A stretch of DNA of 64,000 bases from a bacterium (lineage in GTDB: Bacteria > Hydrothermota > UBA3073 > JACQXS01 > JAQTXJ01). The stretch is taken from assembly GCA_028716385.1 (NCBI GenBank), contig JAQUPX010000002.1, positions 354,756 to 418,755 of the forward strand. Direction: 5' to 3'. The position numbers and the translations under genes were made by a program. Of the stretch, positions 3,836 to 55,927 are shown in pieces; positions within the stretch are counted from its first letter, which is position 1; each line of letters starts with the position of its first letter. The notes below the pieces were generated by a model. It searched no databases. It was not told the origin of the DNA and worked only from the letters and a program-made list of their open reading frames with translations.

Positions 3836-4024
3836 AGTTATTTATTTTTAAGATAAAAGTGATAGTTGTCAAGAAGTTTATGGGAAGAAGAAGATTGCCG
3901 GTAAGACATTAAATCTGCCTTAGGCGAGATCTACGATATGACGAAATTTCTTCTTTTCTGCCTAACATAGAACAGGCATAACTGTTCCCTACGATATCTA
4001 ATATTTTGACAAATTGTAGGAGCA

Positions 4025-4039
4025 TCCGCCTGAGGCGGA
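4025..4039. repeat. TCCGCCTGAGGCGGA dispersed palindrome
   Basis: A perfect 15-base palindrome with a single central base, in the intergenic region between 3836 and 4100. An identical copy lies at 52234-52248 and variants occur at 13792-13806 and 32168-32182. A related element at 3914-3929 (TCTGCCTTAGGCGAGA) and a GAACAG/CTGTTC repeat at 3970-3987 sit in the same spacer, which otherwise holds nothing recognisable. Confidence 0.75.
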
Positions 4040-46972: not shown

Positions 46973-48478
46973 TTATTTCATCAAAACCAATTTCCTCGTC
47001 TCTTTGAATGTTCCTGCTGTCAGTCTCACAAAATATATTCCTGTTTTTAGGTCTTTTGCGTTCAGGGTTGTGGAATAAGTGCCGGCGGGTTTCTCGCCGT
47101 TAGCCAATGTCTTTATGAGTCTACCGGTTAAATCATAAATTGCAAGAGAGACATATCGAGGTTGGGAAACCTCTCCCACAGTATAACTAATAACTGTAGA
47201 TTTAGAGAAGGGGTTTTGGGAAATGGATAATTTTGGTCCGCCAAGGCGAGATGTCGCTTCGCTCCAATTTTGAGAGGAAGGTTCTTCGATAGCGATTAAT
47301 GAGTCGGAAATGAAGGGTTTATAGTAAACTATTCCTTTTGAAGAGTCATCATAGAAGTCCCGGATTTTTGCATCAATGATATTAGTATCATTTGTTCCCC
47401 AGTAGTTATAACGGGCGTCCACGCTGTCCGTGCTGTCATTATAAATGGCACAATATTTAGCATAAATATTGGTACTGCAAATAACGACATCATATCCTGA
47501 ATTGTAGATGGAAGGGTGGGTAGTATCATAAGACAACCCGTCATCAATTATTGTGTTGTTTTTAATTGTTACCCGGGAACCGGTATTTTCAATATTATTT
47601 CCCTTGTGCCACATATTACAATCATTATAAGAGATAAAGTTATGGGCGATAACGACGGAATCGTGAGAATTACATATCCCGCCGCCATAGTTATGTGAAA
47701 CATTATTTCCTATGATAGTAGCCGGTCCACCATTAATTATCCCCCCACTACCGTTTCCACCATCCGATGTTATGTTGTTGTTCATTATAGTAGCTTTGCC
47801 CACATTGTGTATACCGCAACCATTATTGGACATTGTATTGCCTGTTATTATAGCTTCTCCCATATCCCAATTCCAAATCCCTCCGCCAGCTTCAAAGTGG
47901 TCAGCATTGCCAGATATAATATTATTTGTTATGAACGCATGACCGGCGTTAACAATCCCGGCATAGGATGTCCAATTATCACAAACACTATTGTTTGTAA
48001 TAATAATTGTTCCCGAGTTCTTAATACCGCTGAGAAGGCTGGTTTGTCCTAGATTGTCTTGTATAGCACAATACCCCACATAAACGGAGTCATCGCTTTG
48101 ATTATAAACTGCCGTTTTTGCATGTTCAATCCTGCAGTATTTCAAACTGCATTTTGCGGCCGGGCTAATCGTTATTACGCCCCAACCGTAGTTTGTTGTG
48201 TTTCCGGTAATAATGATTGAGTCATTTACTGTTCCTATTGCGTTTAAAGTCCCGTTTATTGTTATATCTGCGCTGCTTATAACTGTGACACCGGGGTCAA
48301 TTTTTAAAGTTACAAGGGTATCAACTGTAAGAGCACTTGTTACGACGTACGGACTGCCTGTCGTATCCCAGACAATATTTGTAGTGATATTTCCGCTGAC
48401 ATAAGTAGTATCTGCTTGGAGCAACATTCCGGAAAGCAATCCTAATATTCCAGCACTAATTAATAATATTTTTTTCAT
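46973..48478 (-). CDS. Right-handed beta-helix T9SS cargo protein
   Basis: 501 residues. Signal peptide (1-22, ending LQA), then a parallel beta-helix (about 30-390) with regular N-rich turns (TIIITNNSVCDNWTSYAGI, ATIIGNNVSHNYGGGICNS, VTIKNNTIIDDG), a fold common in polysaccharide lyases and phage tailspikes; no catalytic residues could be assigned. The linker encodes SSQNWSEATSRLGGPKLSIS, the second copy of the repeat at 21683. The T9SS tail (about 415-501) contains a palindrome-derived insertion (VGEVSQPRYVS; 47158-47173). GGAGGC precedes the ATG. It lies in the middle of the minus-strand operon. Confidence 0.85.
   Translation of the reverse strand: MKKILLISAGILGLLSGMLLQADTTYVSGNITTNIVWDTTGSPYVVTSALTVDTLVTLKIDPGVTVISSADITINGTLNAIGTVNDSIIITGNTTNYGWGVITISPAAKCSLKYCRIEHAKTAVYNQSDDSVYVGYCAIQDNLGQTSLLSGIKNSGTIIITNNSVCDNWTSYAGIVNAGHAFITNNIISGNADHFEAGGGIWNWDMGEAIITGNTMSNNGCGIHNVGKATIMNNNITSDGGNGSGGIINGGPATIIGNNVSHNYGGGICNSHDSVVIAHNFISYNDCNMWHKGNNIENTGSRVTIKNNTIIDDGLSYDTTHPSIYNSGYDVVICSTNIYAKYCAIYNDSTDSVDARYNYWGTNDTNIIDAKIRDFYDDSSKGIVYYKPFISDSLIAIEEPSSQNWSEATSRLGGPKLSISQNPFSKSTVISYTVGEVSQPRYVSLAIYDLTGRLIKTLANGEKPAGTYSTTLNAKDLKTGIYFVRLTAGTFKETRKLVLMK
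47158..47173. repeat. GAGGTT-GGGA-AACCTC palindrome inside T9SS tail
   Basis: A perfect 6 bp inverted repeat within the coding sequence, at the same place in the tail (before IYDLTGR) where the genes at 50782 and 52334 carry different palindromes. Confidence 0.65.
47235..47278. repeat. In-frame repeat encoding SSQNWS.AT.RLGG, copy 2
   Basis: Minus-strand counterpart of 21683-21726, in the linker of the beta-helix protein. Confidence 0.7.
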
Positions 48479-48525
48479 CTTGCCTCCAGTTATTAAATCA
48501 AATATTAAATATCAAAAATCAAATA

Positions 48526-50772
48526 TTATTTTATAATTGTAATTTTCTTTGTTGTTTTAAATGTTCCAGTGGTCAGTCTCACAAAATATATTCCTGTTTT
48601 TAGGTCATTTGCGGTGAGGGTTATATTATAAACACCTGCAGGTTTCTCTTCATTAATTAATGTCTTCGCACAACTGCCGGAAATATCGTAAACACTTAAT
48701 ATCACTCGAGTTCTAACGGGTATAAAATACTTGATAATTGTTGATTTAATAAATGGATTTTGTCCTATTTCTAATTTTGAATTTTGGAGTGGGGATTTTG
48801 GATTGGAGGATTCTTCAATGCCTACAAAACTATACACTGAGATCCCCTGTCCATCAGTACCAACCCATACATTACTTCCTTCTATTGCAAGAGCAGAGAC
48901 ACAGTTAGAAGACAAACCTGAATTTGAGGTATTGAAAACAGTCCATGTTGTGCCGTCAAACTTTGCTATACCACCACCAGAAGTTCCGACCCATTTATTG
49001 TTTCCTTCTATTGCAATGGCATTGACACCGTTATCAGGCAAACCTGAATTTGAAGTATTATAAACAGTCCAGTTCGTCCCGTCAAATTTCACAAGACCAT
49101 TAGTGGCAATCCAGACATTACTTCCCTCTATTGCAATAGCCTTGACATAGTTAGAAGGCAAACCAGAATTTGAGGTGTCATACACAGTCCAGTTAACGCC
49201 GTCAAACTTTACCAAGCCACCACCATAAAAAAGATAACCCCACGTGGCAATCCAGATATTACTTCCTTCTATTGCAATGGCATGGACATCATTATCGGGT
49301 AAACCGGAATTTAAGGTGTCATACACAGTCCAATTTGTGCCGTTAAACTTCGAAAGACCATTCGCGCCAACCCAGACAGTACTTCCTTCTATTGCAAGAG
49401 CTTGAACATAGTTAGAAGGCAAATCAGAATTTGAGGTGTCATACACAGTCCAGTTTGTGCCGTCAAACTTCGCAAGCCCACCAACCCAAGTGCCAACCCA
49501 GATATTATTCCCTTCTATTGCAAGAGCATGGATTCCATTATAAAGCAAGCCCGAATTGCTCGTATCATAAATTGTCCAGTTTGTACCATCAAAATTAACA
49601 AGACCATTAGTGCCAATCCAGACATTGTTTTCTTCTATTGCAAGTTCAGAAATATGGTTATCCGGCAACCCGGAATTGGACGTGTTGAAAGCCGTCCAGT
49701 TAACACCATCAAACTTTGCTAAGCCATTATAAGTTCCAACCCATTTTATGCTGTCGTCTATTACGATTGAATAAACCCGGTTATGCGACAAACCGGAATT
49801 TAAGGTATCATAAACAGTCCAGTTTGTCCCGTCAAACTTCGAAAGACCATTCGCGCCAATCCAGACAGTACTCCCTTCTATTGCAAGAGCTTGAACACTG
49901 TTAGAAGGCAAATCAGAATTTGAGGTGTTAAACACAGTCCAGTTGGTTCCATCAAACTTTGCAAGACCACCATGAGTGCCAATCCAGATATTACTTTCCT
50001 CTATTGCAATAGTCCTGACATAGTTATCGGGCAACCCTGAATTTGAGGTTTTGTAAACAGTCCAATTAGTTCCGTCAAACTTTGCAAGCCCATTACAAGT
50101 TCCAATCCAGATACTACTGTCTTCTATTGCAAGAGCATTGACTGCATTATAAGGCAAGCCTGAATTTCCCGTGTTATATACAGTCCAGTTTGTCCCGTCA
50201 AACTTCACAAGACCACGATCATCAGTGCCAACCCAGATATTACTATCTTGTACTGCAATAGCATAGACGGTCCCGGTTTGATACGCATACTCGGTCCAGT
50301 TTGTACCATCAAACTTTGTAAGACCATACGCGCCAATCCAGACAGTGCTACCTTCTATTGCAAGAGCAACGACCCTGTTATAATTATAAGGCAAACCCGA
50401 ATTTGTATGGTTATAAAATGTCATTTTCCCGGTAGTTTTGTTCATTTTTACGAGTCCACCACCTTGAGTTCCAATCCATAATTCATTACCGCTATCAGCA
50501 ATAGTATTAACTTGTTGTCCATTGGTATAACTAGTCCATCCCGGGTATTGGGCATTTAGTGTTGCTGTGAGAAAGGCAGCAAATATTATTACTTTTAATT
50601 TTTTTTCGCCTTCCGCCAAACAACGGGCGGACAGGGAGGCGGATTTCCAACCAACTAATTTTGGATACCCTGCAAGCTGGATAAGAAACTCTAATGGCAT
50701 TGCCAAAGAGTTTCTAAATAATCTTCTAATCCGCCTTTGGCGGAAAGAGATTTTAATCGTTTCACTCAACAT
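48526..50772 (-). CDS. Two-component-regulator-propeller-like T9SS cargo protein, unusual N-terminus
   Basis: 748 residues from the ATG at 50772, which has AGGGG 6 bases upstream. The first 50 residues come from an intergenic-type repeat (MLSETIKISF ... YPKLVGWKSAS); the true export signal KKLKVIIFAAFLTATLNAQ lies at 58-76. A TTG at 50619 (residue 52) would place it correctly but lacks a ribosome site. About fifteen propeller repeats follow (77-645; VWIGANGLSKFDGTNWTVYD), then the T9SS tail (about 660-748; GQNPFIKSTIIKYFIP ... KKITIIK). It is a paralogue of 26409. If translation starts at 50772 the signal peptide is buried, so either TTG is used or export is impaired. Confidence 0.82.
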   Translation of the reverse strand: MLSETIKISFRQRRIRRLFRNSLAMPLEFLIQLAGYPKLVGWKSASLSARCLAEGEKKLKVIIFAAFLTATLNAQYPGWTSYTNGQQVNTIADSGNELWIGTQGGGLVKMNKTTGKMTFYNHTNSGLPYNYNRVVALAIEGSTVWIGAYGLTKFDGTNWTEYAYQTGTVYAIAVQDSNIWVGTDDRGLVKFDGTNWTVYNTGNSGLPYNAVNALAIEDSSIWIGTCNGLAKFDGTNWTVYKTSNSGLPDNYVRTIAIEESNIWIGTHGGLAKFDGTNWTVFNTSNSDLPSNSVQALAIEGSTVWIGANGLSKFDGTNWTVYDTLNSGLSHNRVYSIVIDDSIKWVGTYNGLAKFDGVNWTAFNTSNSGLPDNHISELAIEENNVWIGTNGLVNFDGTNWTIYDTSNSGLLYNGIHALAIEGNNIWVGTWVGGLAKFDGTNWTVYDTSNSDLPSNYVQALAIEGSTVWVGANGLSKFNGTNWTVYDTLNSGLPDNDVHAIAIEGSNIWIATWGYLFYGGGLVKFDGVNWTVYDTSNSGLPSNYVKAIAIEGSNVWIATNGLVKFDGTNWTVYNTSNSGLPDNGVNAIAIEGNNKWVGTSGGGIAKFDGTTWTVFNTSNSGLSSNCVSALAIEGSNVWVGTDGQGISVYSFVGIEESSNPKSPLQNSKLEIGQNPFIKSTIIKYFIPVRTRVILSVYDISGSCAKTLINEEKPAGVYNITLTANDLKTGIYFVRLTTGTFKTTKKITIIK
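50632..50772. repeat. Leader repeat with start codon, copy 1
   Basis: On the minus strand the segment begins GGGGATTAAAATGTTGAGTG, contains a CCGCCAAAGGCGG palindrome, AGAGTTTCTTATCCAGCTTG and CCAAAATTAGTTGGTTGGAA, and ends with the palindromic GGCGGACAGG area. It shares its beginning, CTTTGGC/CATTAGAG words and CCGAAATTAGTTGGTCGGAA with 52234-52323; part also recurs at 18793. Confidence 0.65.
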
Positions 50773-50781
50773 TTTAATCCC

Positions 50782-52227
50782 CTATTTCATCAATATTAAT
50801 TTTTTTGTTAGTTTAGTGTTGCCAGCGGTTAGTCTTACAAAATATATTCCAGTTTTTAGGTCATTTGCGGAGAGAGTTGTGGAATAAGTGCCGGCGGGTT
50901 TTTGTTCGTTAATTAATGTCTTTACAAGTCTACCCGATAAATCGTAAATCTGCAAGGAACAGTCCCGACTGTTCCCTACGGAGAAGGAAATAATTGTTGA
51001 TTTAGAGAATGGGTTTTGGGAGACGGACAAGTTTGGATTTTGGAATGCGGATTGCGGATTGGAGGGGGATTCGACTCCTTGGAAAGAAGCATATTTAAAT
51101 ATAAGGTAATCCGGGTCCCATTCATTATTACAGGTTGAACCAGCAATTATAATATTTCCCGACTTATCTATTACTACAGCATTCCCATAATCAAAACGTT
51201 TAATAGCAATGGTATCTCCCCATAAGATATTTCCGGAAGAGTCGTATTTTATTGTTAAAACATCATATACAACATCATAGGTAGGAGCGCAAAACCCCGT
51301 AATTATTATATTGTCATTATCATCTATTGCTACACTTTGTGCTATATCTGCAAGCCCACTATTTAAAGTATCTGTCCACAAAAGATTACCCAATGAATCA
51401 TATTTAATAGTAACCCAATCCCAATACATAGATGTCCCGGGAACATATGAACCGGTAATTATGATGTTTTGTGTGCTATCAATTGCTATTCCGCAAGCAC
51501 TACAATCACTTCCGGGATTATCATTAACCGGGTATATATTATCCCACAAAACATTCCCATTCTGTGAATATTTCATTGTAAAAAAGTGAGCCGTATTAAT
51601 GGAACCGCCATAAATTGAACCTGTAATCACTATATTTCCGGAATTGTCAATTGCTACGCCATAAGCTCTGTTATTTGTACTATCACTAATTGTATCTGCC
51701 CACAAAATATTACCCGCTGAATCATATTTTACCGTCAGACAACCGGTTTTCCAATTAGCGTAAGAGTACCCGGTAACTACTATATTATTCCACTTGTCAA
51801 CAGCTACTGCCGTAGCATAACACGTATCCCCTTTATTAACGGTATCTTTCCATAAAACATTTCTTGCAGAATCGTATTTAACAATAAAATAATCAAGACT
51901 CCCGTTGATGTATGAAGTGCCGACAATTATTATATTCCCTGACCTGTCTATTGCTATTCCCGAAGCTTTATCTTCTCCACCATTATTTATCGTATCTCTC
52001 CATAAAACATTGCCTCCGGAATCATACTTTACCGTAAAAAAGTCATATTCCCCATTGATTTTAGAATACCCCGTAACTAATATGTTATTATTTTTATCAA
52101 TAGCCACTCCGTTTGCGACATCTTCATTTCCGTTATCAATCGTATCAAGCCAAGCTATTTGATATCCTTCAGCCCGCAATAGACTACCGAATAAAAATAC
52201 GGATACACAAAAACATAACTTAAACAT
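50782..52227 (-). CDS. SBBP-like repeat T9SS cargo protein
   Basis: 481 residues from the ATG at 52227 (MFKLCFCVSVFLFGSLLRAEG, a good signal peptide; GGCGGAAGAA upstream comes from a palindrome arm). An in-frame ATG at 52323 with AAGGAG would add 32 repeat-derived residues and is less likely to make the exported form. About seven repeats of about 50 residues follow (25-385): GNILWADTISDSTNNRAYGV, then AIDNSGNIVITG and FTVKYDS, the SBBP/delta-60 pattern. The T9SS tail is at about 395-481 (SQNPFSKSTIISFSVG, then GNSRDCSLQIYDLSGRLVKT, KKLILMK) with a palindrome inserted at 50956-50975. It is the fourth gene of the operon by position. Confidence 0.83.
   Translation of the reverse strand: MFKLCFCVSVFLFGSLLRAEGYQIAWLDTIDNGNEDVANGVAIDKNNNILVTGYSKINGEYDFFTVKYDSGGNVLWRDTINNGGEDKASGIAIDRSGNIIIVGTSYINGSLDYFIVKYDSARNVLWKDTVNKGDTCYATAVAVDKWNNIVVTGYSYANWKTGCLTVKYDSAGNILWADTISDSTNNRAYGVAIDNSGNIVITGSIYGGSINTAHFFTMKYSQNGNVLWDNIYPVNDNPGSDCSACGIAIDSTQNIIITGSYVPGTSMYWDWVTIKYDSLGNLLWTDTLNSGLADIAQSVAIDDNDNIIITGFCAPTYDVVYDVLTIKYDSSGNILWGDTIAIKRFDYGNAVVIDKSGNIIIAGSTCNNEWDPDYLIFKYASFQGVESPSNPQSAFQNPNLSVSQNPFSKSTIISFSVGNSRDCSLQIYDLSGRLVKTLINEQKPAGTYSTTLSANDLKTGIYFVRLTAGNTKLTKKLILMK
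50956..50975. repeat. GGAACAGTC-CC-GACTGTTCC palindrome inside T9SS tail
   Basis: A perfect 9 bp inverted repeat in the coding sequence, followed by CTACGG. A related GAACAG/CTGTTCCCTACG repeat lies between genes at 3970-3992. Confidence 0.75.
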
Positions 52228-52233
52228 ATTTCT

Positions 52234-52323
52234 TCCGCCTGAGGCGGATTTCCGACCAACTAATTTCGGATAAAAATCTCTAATGGCTGTCGCCAAAGAG
52301 CTTTTAATCACTTCGTTCAACAT
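52234..52323. repeat. Leader repeat with start codon and TCCGCCTGAGGCGGA, copy 2
   Basis: Shares its order of words with 50632-50772 (GAGATTAAAATGTTGAACG at the start, CCGAAATTAGTTGGTCGGAA near the end) and finishes in the perfect palindrome at 52234-52248, whose right arm abuts the ATG at 52227. Confidence 0.7.
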
Positions 52324-52333
52324 TTTAATCTCC

Positions 52334-54469
52334 TTATTTTATAATTGTAATTTTCTTTGTTGTTTTAGAGATGCCGGCGGTCAGTCGTACAAAATAAATT
52401 CCTGTTTTTAGTTCGTTTGCGGAGAGGGAGATGGAGTAAGGGCCGGCGGGTTTTTCGCCTTTAGCCAATGTCTTTATAAGTCTACCTGTTAAATCGTAAA
52501 TCGCAAGGCTAAAGCCTTGCCCTACATTTGCGGGTAGATAGTAATTAATAATTGTAGATTTGGAGAATGGGTTTTGACTTATCCTGAGCGAAGTCGAAGT
52601 GGAAGTGGAATTGGGGGATTCCTCTACTCCTAACGCATCATTAAGTACCCATACTGCTCCATCATAGAAAGAACCTGCATAAAGATAGTTATTCGCGGTA
52701 TTTAGCGCTATCGCTTTTATGCAGTCACCGACAGTTATTTGTCCCATAATACTATTGGTAGCGCCATTTATTGCATAAATATCAGCATTTACATTAAACT
52801 TCCCGGCGTATATTCTATTAAGGGAAGGATTTACTGTTATTGTATGAAGAAAGACTCCTACTTGTATAGTATCTACGATATTATTGCCTACACCATCAAT
52901 TACGGAAATATAACCGGGGTCAATACAGCCTGCATAAATGTAATTAGTAACGGGGTTTATTGAAATGTCATATCCACCATATTTAAGTACTGTCGTATCT
53001 ATTACACAATTTGTTGCTCCATCAATTATAAAAATGCTATCATTATATAAAGCATAAAGACGGTTAGTAACAGTATTTATATCCAATGCTATAGCTATGG
53101 GACCCTTCACCGGTATTACGGCAATAATTGAATCGCTACCCGTATCCATTACCTTTATATTACTGACCGTAGCAATATATGCACGACCGGTAATGGAATT
53201 AACACAAATCACTGATGGGATATTATCCATAATACCGGTAATACTATCGGTTGCGCCATCTATTATGTCTATTCCGTCACCGCAATCAACGTAAATCTTA
53301 TTCCTGATTGAGTCAACGCTTATATCGTTGATGCCCATATCGGTGGATATTCTCTTCAATATTTTATTGGTTGTTCCATCAATTACAAAAAGATTTCTAC
53401 CGTATCCATCTCCAACATAAATACGATTAGTATTGGAATTTATCCCTATATCTCCCCATATTTTGCAGCCAACTACTATTGAGGTGTCAACAGAGCAGGT
53501 ATTTCTATTTATTACAGAAACGCTGTTGTTCTCTCTATTTACCACATAAACATAGTTAATTGCCGGGGTAGCGCAAATTCCACAGGGAAAATACTCAACA
53601 CCTATTGTATCAACAACGGAGTTGGTAGTTCCATCAATTACATAAACCTTATTATTAGATAGACTTGTCACATAAATATAATCCGAATCGGCTGTTAGGG
53701 CAGAAAGCGTAGAATCAATTTCTATGGTGGCTACAACTGAATCAGTGCTGTCATTTATTACGGAAATAGTAGTGGTATCATAATTTGACACATAGACATA
53801 ACCGGTAGAAGGGCTTACTGTAACTCCTATAGGTCTTTTGCCCACGTTAATAGTATCCATAAGCGAATCGGTCAAGGCATCTATTACAAAAACCTCATTA
53901 GTATTGCAACTTGTTACATAAATTTTATTAACTTTTAAATCTACAACAATACCTTCTATTGCATCTTCCTCATCTCCGGTTGATATCTTTTTTATGAACG
54001 AGTTAGTAATACCATCAATTACACAAACGGAGCCATACCCATCTGTTAAATAGATACGATTGGTATTTGGATTCACTGCAATGCTTCGCCAGTCTTCAAT
54101 GACTTGCTCGGGATCGGGAAGTGATATCGTTGTTAGTAGCGTATCGGAATTGCCGTCAATTATGGAAACTCCATCATTGCCTAAAACATAAATACGGTTA
54201 TTACTATTATTAATTGCAATGCTGTAACCTTCCCATATATTCGGTATTACACTGATAACCGAATTGGAGAGGACATCAATAACAGACACATTGTTAGTTT
54301 CGTAATTCACTATATATGCTTTGTTGGTATTAGGATTTAAAGCAACTGCCGTAGGTCGTATTCCATTTCCTGCTTTTGGCGCAATACGTATAGTGTCTAT
54401 AATTTCAATCTGGGCAGAGCCGATTGTTGATATGAAAATTGCAAGTAATCCAAATATTAACTTTCTCAT
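52334..54469 (-). CDS. Double YVTN-propeller T9SS cargo protein
   Basis: 711 residues. Signal peptide (1-19, ending GSAQ), then about fourteen YVTN-type repeats (25-610; VAVNPNTNRIYLTDGYGSVC, VIDGTTNSVVDTI), enough for two seven-bladed propellers. The T9SS tail (about 625-711) is preceded by a linker STSTSTSLRISQNPF, whose DNA contains CCTGAGCGAAGTCGAAGT, and carries a palindrome (52503-52520) read as PANVGQGFSLAIYDLTGR. It ends KKITIIK. It is a paralogue of 30431. GAGGGG precedes the ATG; 12 bases separate it from the upstream gene, so co-transcription is likely. Ligand unknown. Confidence 0.87.
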   Translation of the reverse strand: MRKLIFGLLAIFISTIGSAQIEIIDTIRIAPKAGNGIRPTAVALNPNTNKAYIVNYETNNVSVIDVLSNSVISVIPNIWEGYSIAINNSNNRIYVLGNDGVSIIDGNSDTLLTTISLPDPEQVIEDWRSIAVNPNTNRIYLTDGYGSVCVIDGITNSFIKKISTGDEEDAIEGIVVDLKVNKIYVTSCNTNEVFVIDALTDSLMDTINVGKRPIGVTVSPSTGYVYVSNYDTTTISVINDSTDSVVATIEIDSTLSALTADSDYIYVTSLSNNKVYVIDGTTNSVVDTIGVEYFPCGICATPAINYVYVVNRENNSVSVINRNTCSVDTSIVVGCKIWGDIGINSNTNRIYVGDGYGRNLFVIDGTTNKILKRISTDMGINDISVDSIRNKIYVDCGDGIDIIDGATDSITGIMDNIPSVICVNSITGRAYIATVSNIKVMDTGSDSIIAVIPVKGPIAIALDINTVTNRLYALYNDSIFIIDGATNCVIDTTVLKYGGYDISINPVTNYIYAGCIDPGYISVIDGVGNNIVDTIQVGVFLHTITVNPSLNRIYAGKFNVNADIYAINGATNSIMGQITVGDCIKAIALNTANNYLYAGSFYDGAVWVLNDALGVEESPNSTSTSTSLRISQNPFSKSTIINYYLPANVGQGFSLAIYDLTGRLIKTLAKGEKPAGPYSISLSANELKTGIYFVRLTAGISKTTKKITIIK
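52503..52520. repeat. GCAAGGCT-AA-AGCCTTGC palindrome inside T9SS tail
   Basis: A perfect 8 bp inverted repeat followed by CCTAC, at the same position in the tail as the palindromes at 47158 and 50956. Confidence 0.75.
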
Positions 54470-54481
54470 AATACCCCTCCT

Positions 54482-55927
54482 TTACTTCATCAACACCAAC
54501 TTCTTTGTTTCTTTAAATGTGCCTGCGGTCAGTCTAACAAAATACACCCCTGTTTTTAGGTCTTTCAGATTAATACTGTAACTCCCCGCCTCTTTCTCTC
54601 CATTTATAAGTGTCTTAACACAACTACCGGAAATGTCGTAAACACTTAATATCACTTGAGTTCTAACGGGTATGCAATACTTGATAATTGTTGATTTAAT
54701 AAAAGGGTTTTGTGAGATTTCTAATTTTGTATTTTGAGTTTTAATATTTGAGTTTTCTTCAACCGCTGTTTCTTTCCCCAGCCGAATCAGATAGACATCA
54801 GAGCCGCCTGCCCCGAAGGAGGTTGTAATGCCTACAACGATAAAACCACCATCAGAAGTCTGTTGAACTGAGCATCCATCATCATACTTAGTTCCACCGA
54901 GAGTTTTAGTCCACAAAGTATCACCTAAAGAATTTGTCCTGACGAGATAGACATCACAAGAATCTGATATGCCTGCCGCGAAAGAGTTCGTAGTTCCTGC
55001 AATAATAAATCCGCTATCGCAAGTCTGTTGAACTGAATTACCATAATTACAAACTCCTCTGCTGTAAGTTCTTGTCCAAATGGTATCTCCGGAAGAATTT
55101 GTTTTAATGAGATAGACATCATCATTCCCTGTCCCGAAAGAGGTTGTAGCGCCTGCAACGATAAAACCGCCATCTTTAGTCTGTTGAACGGAATTACCAC
55201 AATCACCTTTAGTTCCGCCGAAAGTTCTTGCCCACAGCATACCGCCTGAAGAGTCTGTTCTAATCAGATAGACATCTCCCCCGGTAGAGGATGTATAACC
55301 TGTAATAATAAAACCGCCATCTGAAGCCTGTTTAACCGAATAACCATAATCATCAAAAGTTCCCCCATAACTGTTAGTCCAGAGCAGAGCGCCTGAAGAG
55401 TTTGTTTTAATCAGATAGGCATCATTATAGCCTACTCCAGATAGTGTCACTTCTGCAATGATAAACCCGCTGTCTTGAGTTTGTTGAACTGAATTGCCAT
55501 AATCATCAAAAGTTTCGCCAAAAGTTCTTGTCCAGAGAGTGTCACCCGAAGAATCTGTCCTAACCAGATAAACATTAGAAAAATTAGGTGTGTTTACTCC
55601 AAAAGAGCACGTAGAGCCTGTAATGATAAAACCACCGTCAAAGGTCTGTTGAACTGAAAGCCCCCAATCACCATTAGTTCCGCCGAAAGTTCTTGTCCAG
55701 AGGGTATCACCTGAAGAATTTGTCTTAACCAGATAGACATCCAAATCGCCCGCCCCGAAAGAGTATGTCCATCCTGTAATGATAAAACCGCTATCAGAAG
55801 TCTGTTGAACGGAATTGCCATAATCATTACTATTGCCCCCATAAGTTTTTGTCCAAAGAGTATCGGGTGCGGATGCAAATAAGTTTGTTCCTGTAAGGAT
55901 AATTAATACAAGCAAATATTTTTGCAT
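54482..55927 (-). CDS. T9SS cargo protein of GGFIIAG-type periodic repeats
   Basis: 481 residues. Signal peptide (about 1-19, ending FASA), then about seven repeats (22-385) near LWTRTFGGTNGDWGLSVQQT, then FDGGFIITGST, SNVYLVRTDSSGDT. It is the counterpart of the protein at 20497, to which the repeats are very similar. The T9SS tail is at about 400-481 (SQNPFIKSTIIKYCIPVRTQ ... KKLVLMK), two residues shorter than its neighbours in the strand before GVYFVRL. It begins 8 bases after the upstream stop. It is probably a secreted or surface propeller of unknown ligand. Confidence 0.86.
   Translation of the reverse strand: MQKYLLVLIILTGTNLFASAPDTLWTKTYGGNSNDYGNSVQQTSDSGFIITGWTYSFGAGDLDVYLVKTNSSGDTLWTRTFGGTNGDWGLSVQQTFDGGFIITGSTCSFGVNTPNFSNVYLVRTDSSGDTLWTRTFGETFDDYGNSVQQTQDSGFIIAEVTLSGVGYNDAYLIKTNSSGALLWTNSYGGTFDDYGYSVKQASDGGFIITGYTSSTGGDVYLIRTDSSGGMLWARTFGGTKGDCGNSVQQTKDGGFIVAGATTSFGTGNDDVYLIKTNSSGDTIWTRTYSRGVCNYGNSVQQTCDSGFIIAGTTNSFAAGISDSCDVYLVRTNSLGDTLWTKTLGGTKYDDGCSVQQTSDGGFIVVGITTSFGAGGSDVYLIRLGKETAVEENSNIKTQNTKLEISQNPFIKSTIIKYCIPVRTQVILSVYDISGSCVKTLINGEKEAGSYSINLKDLKTGVYFVRLTAGTFKETKKLVLMK

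Follow-up and report, generated by a model that had tools for sequence, protein, structure and literature searches.

Are palindromic repeats inside genes debris, or raw material for proteins? This old question is raised by three genes in a 64,000-nucleotide stretch of a Hydrothermota genome (assembly GCA_028716385.1, contig JAQUPX010000002.1; hereafter the window). A preliminary description reported that the T9SS tails of these genes carry three different palindromes, inserted in frame at the same loop, and likened them to the palindromic elements that spread into genes and are tolerated in Rickettsia. A domain that is repeated at least 150 times in one genome is a natural replicated experiment, with several REP families, REP-free controls and a second species, in which tolerance, replacement and cassette exchange become directly testable. 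The reading we favour, with a probability of roughly 75%, is that GTRG-headed REPs lie in frame in the beta2-beta3 turn of the tails, that type C reflects repeated arrival, and that types A and B are older cassettes that have moved among tails. A DNA hairpin would then code for a protein beta-hairpin.

Palindromes in the window

All three palindromes were recovered, at the site where sister tails read xIPVRTQVILSVYD (Table 1). The arms of type B (GAGGTT/AACCTC) occupy 47158-47173, and its head and a 3' extension widen the element to 47153-47179. The arms of type A, GGAACAGTC/GACTGTTCC, span 50956-50975 with a head that reaches 50979, and those of type C, GCAAGGCT/AGCCTTGC, span 52503-52520 with a head that reaches 52525. 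A scan for perfect hairpins in the window alone overlooked type B, with its 6-base arms. Read in the coding direction, each element opens with GTRGG in the identical phase, GTR GG. Reverse-complemented, the CCTAC that had been noticed after two of the palindromes becomes a GTAGG head, and the third element has GTGGG in its place. The relative noticed near 3970 is real and intergenic, and is a degenerate copy of type A.

Table 1. Features of the window discussed in the text
Feature	Position	Strand	Remarks
T9SS type A sorting domain with cassette B	46976..47239	-	TIGR04183 39.3 bits (cut-off 23 bits), PF18962
T9SS type A sorting domain with cassette A	50785..51039	-	predicted 7-strand fold, cassette at strand 2-turn-strand 3
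T9SS type A sorting domain with cassette C	52337..52597	-	TIGR04183 33.9 bits
Palindrome-free sister tail (CIPVRTQVILSVYD)	54485..54733	-	canonical reference
Palindrome-free sister tail (FIPVRTRVILSVYD)	48529..48783	-	
Type B REP cassette GTGGGAGAGGTTTCCCAACCTCGATAT (VGEVSQPRY)	47153..47179	-	in T9SS tail, gene 46973-48478
Type A REP cassette GTAGGGAACAGTCGGGACTGTTCC (VGNSRDCS)	50956..50979	-	in T9SS tail, gene 50782-52323
Type C REP cassette GTAGGGCAAGGCTTTAGCCTTGC (VGQGFSLA)	52503..52525	-	in T9SS tail, gene 52334-54469
Degenerate intergenic type A REP GTAGGGAACAGTTATGCCTGTTCT	3969..3992	-	model E about 1
Type D palindrome TCCGCCTGAGGCGGA, intergenic	4025..4039	.	
Type D palindrome upstream of gene 50782	52234..52248	.	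probably before the true start codon

The host domain and its turn

The three proteins end in matches to the T9SS type A sorting domain of 33.9-49.2 bits, against a curated cut-off of 23 bits. Modelling the tail had been proposed as a check on whether the loop is exposed. The AlphaFold model of tail A is confident (mean pLDDT 90) and has the seven-strand beta-sandwich of this domain, in which residues 14-21 make up strand 2 and residues 25-32 strand 3. It places the REP codons at residues 21-28, where they run from the last part of strand 2 through the turn into strand 3. The model of the canonical tail has an identical topology. The best PDB matches of the tail model include solved T9SS CTDs (8glj, 8glk, 8qb1), and the single match that passes an E of 0.001 is a DUF3244 protein. 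Scores, fold and PDB neighbours agree with the known T9SS type A CTD (TIGR04183, PF18962); the difference is that REP DNA encodes the predicted turn between strands 2 and 3 in a minority of tails.

The loop measures 11 residues in 107 of 134 parsed tails. It keeps this length with type A, where eight canonical codons are replaced, and measures 14 residues with type B and 13 (the window tail) or 23 with type C. The canonical turn sequence that gives way is xIPxxxKVSLx. The cassettes are thus mostly block replacements of canonical turn codons and not pure insertions, so that of the in-frame insertion originally described, the common loop and the intact frame hold and the insertion itself mostly does not. 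Their edges are block boundaries; the gradual intermediates that the preliminary description had named as evidence against its view were not seen at the cassettes. Five of the six reading phases of type A are open. Type C has only three open phases, of which the observed phase is the sole one in the sense direction.

Census and chance expectation

The genome (3.27 Mb in 25 contigs) encodes at least 150 T9SS type A tails, a lower bound, like all our tail counts, from 150 scored among 406 candidates. Most tails are without any such hairpin. At least 13 carry type A (five), type B (five) or type C (three, one of them broken by a fourth palindrome), and the loop, the strand and the reading phase of these tail copies are all identical. 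A genome-wide catalogue had been suggested, and it bears out the clustering: the exact pattern GGAACAG(N2-6)CTGTTCC occurs five times, always in T9SS tails at this loop, and the same is true of all five matches to GTGGGAGNGGTT(N2-6)AACC. Reversed-pattern controls for the exact A, B and C patterns gave no matches.

In a 537 kb sample of the genome GTAG stands before GC-rich hairpins 16 times, where the median tetranucleotide does so three times; this is a raw count, not normalised for tetranucleotide frequency, in which GTAGGG and AGGG overlap and a few A-rich heads have higher scores. A covariance model of GTAG followed by a 9-pair hairpin finds about 55-60 GTAG hairpins in the genome, mostly intergenic. 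Those within long ORFs are five type A and two type C copies in tails, and three in-frame copies in other proteins. By a rough calculation, good to the order of magnitude only, four of seven separate origins would fall in the loop by chance with a probability of 2e-8, where all 406 tail candidates were counted at 33 bases each, 88% coding was assumed and the count of origins rests on judgement. The exact-arm patterns had also suggested that type A is confined to tails, an idea we dropped when the covariance model and the relatives revealed dispersed forms.

Identity of the elements

On the evidence of their sequences, we assign A, B and C to REP families of the GTAG/GTRG-headed, RAYT-associated kind. 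Each is a short, perfect or near-perfect hairpin behind an unpaired GTAG or GTGG, and each has multiple dispersed intergenic copies, those of type B being in relatives only and not in its own genome. The genome also holds two RAYT genes, which score 103 bits and 78.8 bits against NF047646 (REP_Tyr_transpos), the second 1.2 bits under the cut-off of 80. GTAG hairpins, whose stems differ, flank both genes. Since the heads of these flanking REPs are GTAGC or GTAGG and their stems are unlike those of A and B, the RAYTs are linked to A and B by kind and not by stem sequence.

The type A sequence GTAGGGAACAGGCATGCCTGTTCCCTAC is dispersed in genome G023 (21 copies) and intergenic in G001, the second species of the genus, and G000 has a near-copy. 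Dispersed relatives of type B (GTGGGAGNGGTTTCCNAACCNCGATA and GTGGGAGNGGTTTCCNAACCNCGAtAw) are mostly intergenic and occur in G043, G102, G013 and others. Type C (GTAGGGCAAGGCTTTAGCCTTGC, small loop variants included) is present in 12 of 40 genomes of the phylum, namely its own, with an intergenic copy, and 11 of 39 others. Between dispersed and tail copies the stems covary: in A both sides have changed at three pairs, and one B pair takes the forms AU, GC, CG, GU and UG. This covariation exceeds that of shuffles and of slid controls, and two of the double changes fall within tails. Some A and C copies lie in the same phase within other predicted ORFs of G004, G005 and G006, so that in-frame entry is general in the phylum.

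The GTAG superfamily of REPs is well described. Its members have a palindrome of 20-40 bases, an unpaired GTAG head and variable stems, are mostly intergenic, and flank RAYT genes in so-called REPtrons (Di Nocera et al. 2013, PMC3733652). The elements described here agree in palindrome and head, stem variability, intergenic bias and RAYT flanking, and type C is very similar to the 23-nt REP of S. maltophilia, which has an 8-bp stem (PMC3733652). Some GTAG REPs are also known inside ORFs, and different REPs occupy about the same recB site in two Xanthomonas species (PMC3733652). However, the reported intragenic copies lie in unrelated proteins, often of DNA repair (PMC3733652), whereas here several families share one turn of one domain, with cassettes that are independent of the downstream tail DNA. 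Our literature search found no paper linking T9SS and palindromes. Intragenic REPs are known; several REP families at one secretion-signal turn, swapped as cassettes, are new in the literature searched.

The palindromic elements of Rickettsia, the RPEs, reportedly described by Ogata and Claverie, are the likeness drawn earlier. As summarised in PMC3733652, they too are palindromes that lie in frame inside coding genes and are tolerated. The same summary files the short RPE-4 and RPE-6 under a CGTC superfamily; the heads of A, B and C are all GTRG and none has the CGTC tag. The earlier comparison survives as to dispersal, entry into genes and tolerance at a turn, with GTRG-headed REPs in place of RPEs.

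Spread among tails

The cassettes are more alike than the tails that hold them. Pairwise identity is 0.92 for A (seven tails) and 0.98 for B (eight tails); in the flanks it is 0.77-0.89 over the adjoining 18 upstream bases and 0.5-0.8 beyond. Among codons for the same residue, 0.94 are identical inside cassettes against 0.52-0.75 outside. A tree of combined upstream and downstream tail DNA is weakly resolved, and we used a downstream-only tree with clade tests, which rest on 165 columns of short tails. These reject a single clade for the A tails (p=0.026) and for the B tails (p=0.006), and the cassette labels on the downstream tree are not more clustered than shuffled labels. Downstream, the three tails of the window agree at 77-81%, and yet their cassettes are B, A and C. 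The passenger does not predict the cassette either: one passenger family occurs with different cassettes, and unrelated passengers with one cassette.

Five tails of G001 carry A or B, again at this loop and in this strand and phase, and both cassettes therefore predate the split of the two species. In G000 and G001 every B is restricted to tails, as are the tail variants of A (with TCGGGA, TCGCGA and TCGTGA cores), which would not be expected of a REP that transposes freely, so that most of the spread was probably from tail to tail. A and B are not jumping freely within their own genome today. Type C looks like the repeated arrival of a dispersed REP: its two intact tails have nothing in common upstream of the GTAG of the REP, where the loops are unrelated. 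A search of the whole G001 genome found no exact type C, given which it is probably lineage-specific. No clean matched empty site for A, B or C was found in G001.

A probable route follows. A REP of this kind, an unpaired GTRG head with a hairpin of variable, covarying stem, would be processed as single-stranded DNA by RAYT-type HUH transposases (for the biochemistry of TnpA-REP see PMC8266576), and the two RAYTs of the genome may have mobilised A, B and C. Dispersed REPs would have landed in the beta2-beta3 turn more than once, in frame and in one orientation. They would be tolerated there and kept, since the peptide that this phase yields (VGxxxxCSL, VGxxSQPRYVSL or VGxGFSLA) is a strand-turn-strand suited to the site. 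For A and B, residence in tails would go back beyond the divergence of the two sampled species; the tail forms of both would afterwards have been passed around as loop cassettes, with recombination between paralogous tails the most likely means. We suppose this tolerance to be neutral and not a matter of function. That the REPs instead serve as exchangeable secretion-signal loops, moved by RAYT strand transfer or hairpin-promoted gene conversion in an ongoing surface diversification, strikes us as unlikely.

Competing explanations

Could each cassette type have entered one tail once, and spread by whole-tail duplication? A constraint on the peptide or on the mRNA hairpin could preserve the likeness of the cassettes even if nothing had moved recently, in both species the tail forms of A and B occur in tails alone, and the A tails have about 12 upstream bases (ATTTCCTWCTCC) in common. 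We nevertheless consider a single entry improbable in view of the clade tests, the unclustered labels, the near-sister tails with different cassettes and the return of type C in tails with unrelated upstream loops. It is somewhat harder still to credit that selection acts on the hairpins as signals in RNA or DNA, placed close to the 3' end of the gene (for mRNA stability, attenuation or transposase binding), and that the turn only tolerates them. The covarying stems, with one pair in B and three in A, and the conserved synonymous codons are what such a signal would leave; the covariation, however, extends to the dispersed copies between genes and could come from a diversity of source REPs or from hairpin-templated repair, most tails are hairpin-free, and no common non-coding position is evident other than the protein turn.

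Rare chance matches had been raised at the outset as what might undo the whole case. Loop sequences do vary and short palindromes arise in any genome, but identical blocks of 22-27 bases turn up repeatedly in tails, between genes and in different genomes, the controls gave zero matches, and chance can be set aside with near certainty. REPs that entered the turn repeatedly, with A and B then moving among tails, remain our preferred account.

Palindrome D and other repeats

A fourth palindrome, type D (TCCGCCTNAGGCGGA), is a bare 15-base palindrome with 92 copies genome-wide, several of them in T9SS tails. We looked for a GTRG head here as well and rejected it: GTAG precedes only 3 of 32 copies, and no flank is conserved. 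Type D supplies the sole cross-species present/absent pair, C5:20042 of the own genome against C11:10460 of G001, in which a block of 16 bases stands for 7 and the loop DNA flanking both sides is nearly identical. In the third C tail (C7:119683-119716, locus L094) D replaces part of the left arm of the REP and stays in frame (VGSASGGFSLAIYD), giving the layout GTAGGG-TCCGCCTCAGGCGGA-TTTAGCCTTGC.

Longer loops, for example at C1:184059, C5:20042 and C11:10460 of G001, hold simple direct repeats such as CTCTCAACTCTTAACTCTCAACTC or GACCACTGACCACCGACCACTGACC, and thus the same turn accepts non-palindromic repeats too. Whether dispersed repeats account for every odd loop was asked with 12-mer counts, which support this for D and a few others, and not for most REP-free loops. 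In another loop, the tail at C6:116754 of the own genome has the peptide ICHSERSEESNGIR, apparently the in-frame product of one more short dispersed repeat.

The linkers before two of the window tails (52575-52600 and 47227-47275) read STSTSTSLR and NWSEATSRLGG and look like translated short repeats (..CTTCGACTTCGCTCAGG.. and ..CGAAGCGACATCTCGCC..). At 50620-50772 and 52234-52323 a related non-coding repeat (..GGCGGATTTCC[AG]ACCAACTAATTT[TC]GGAT..) precedes a signal-peptide-like start. Given this shared upstream repeat and the later start, the listed ORF starts of two of the tail genes are probably too early.
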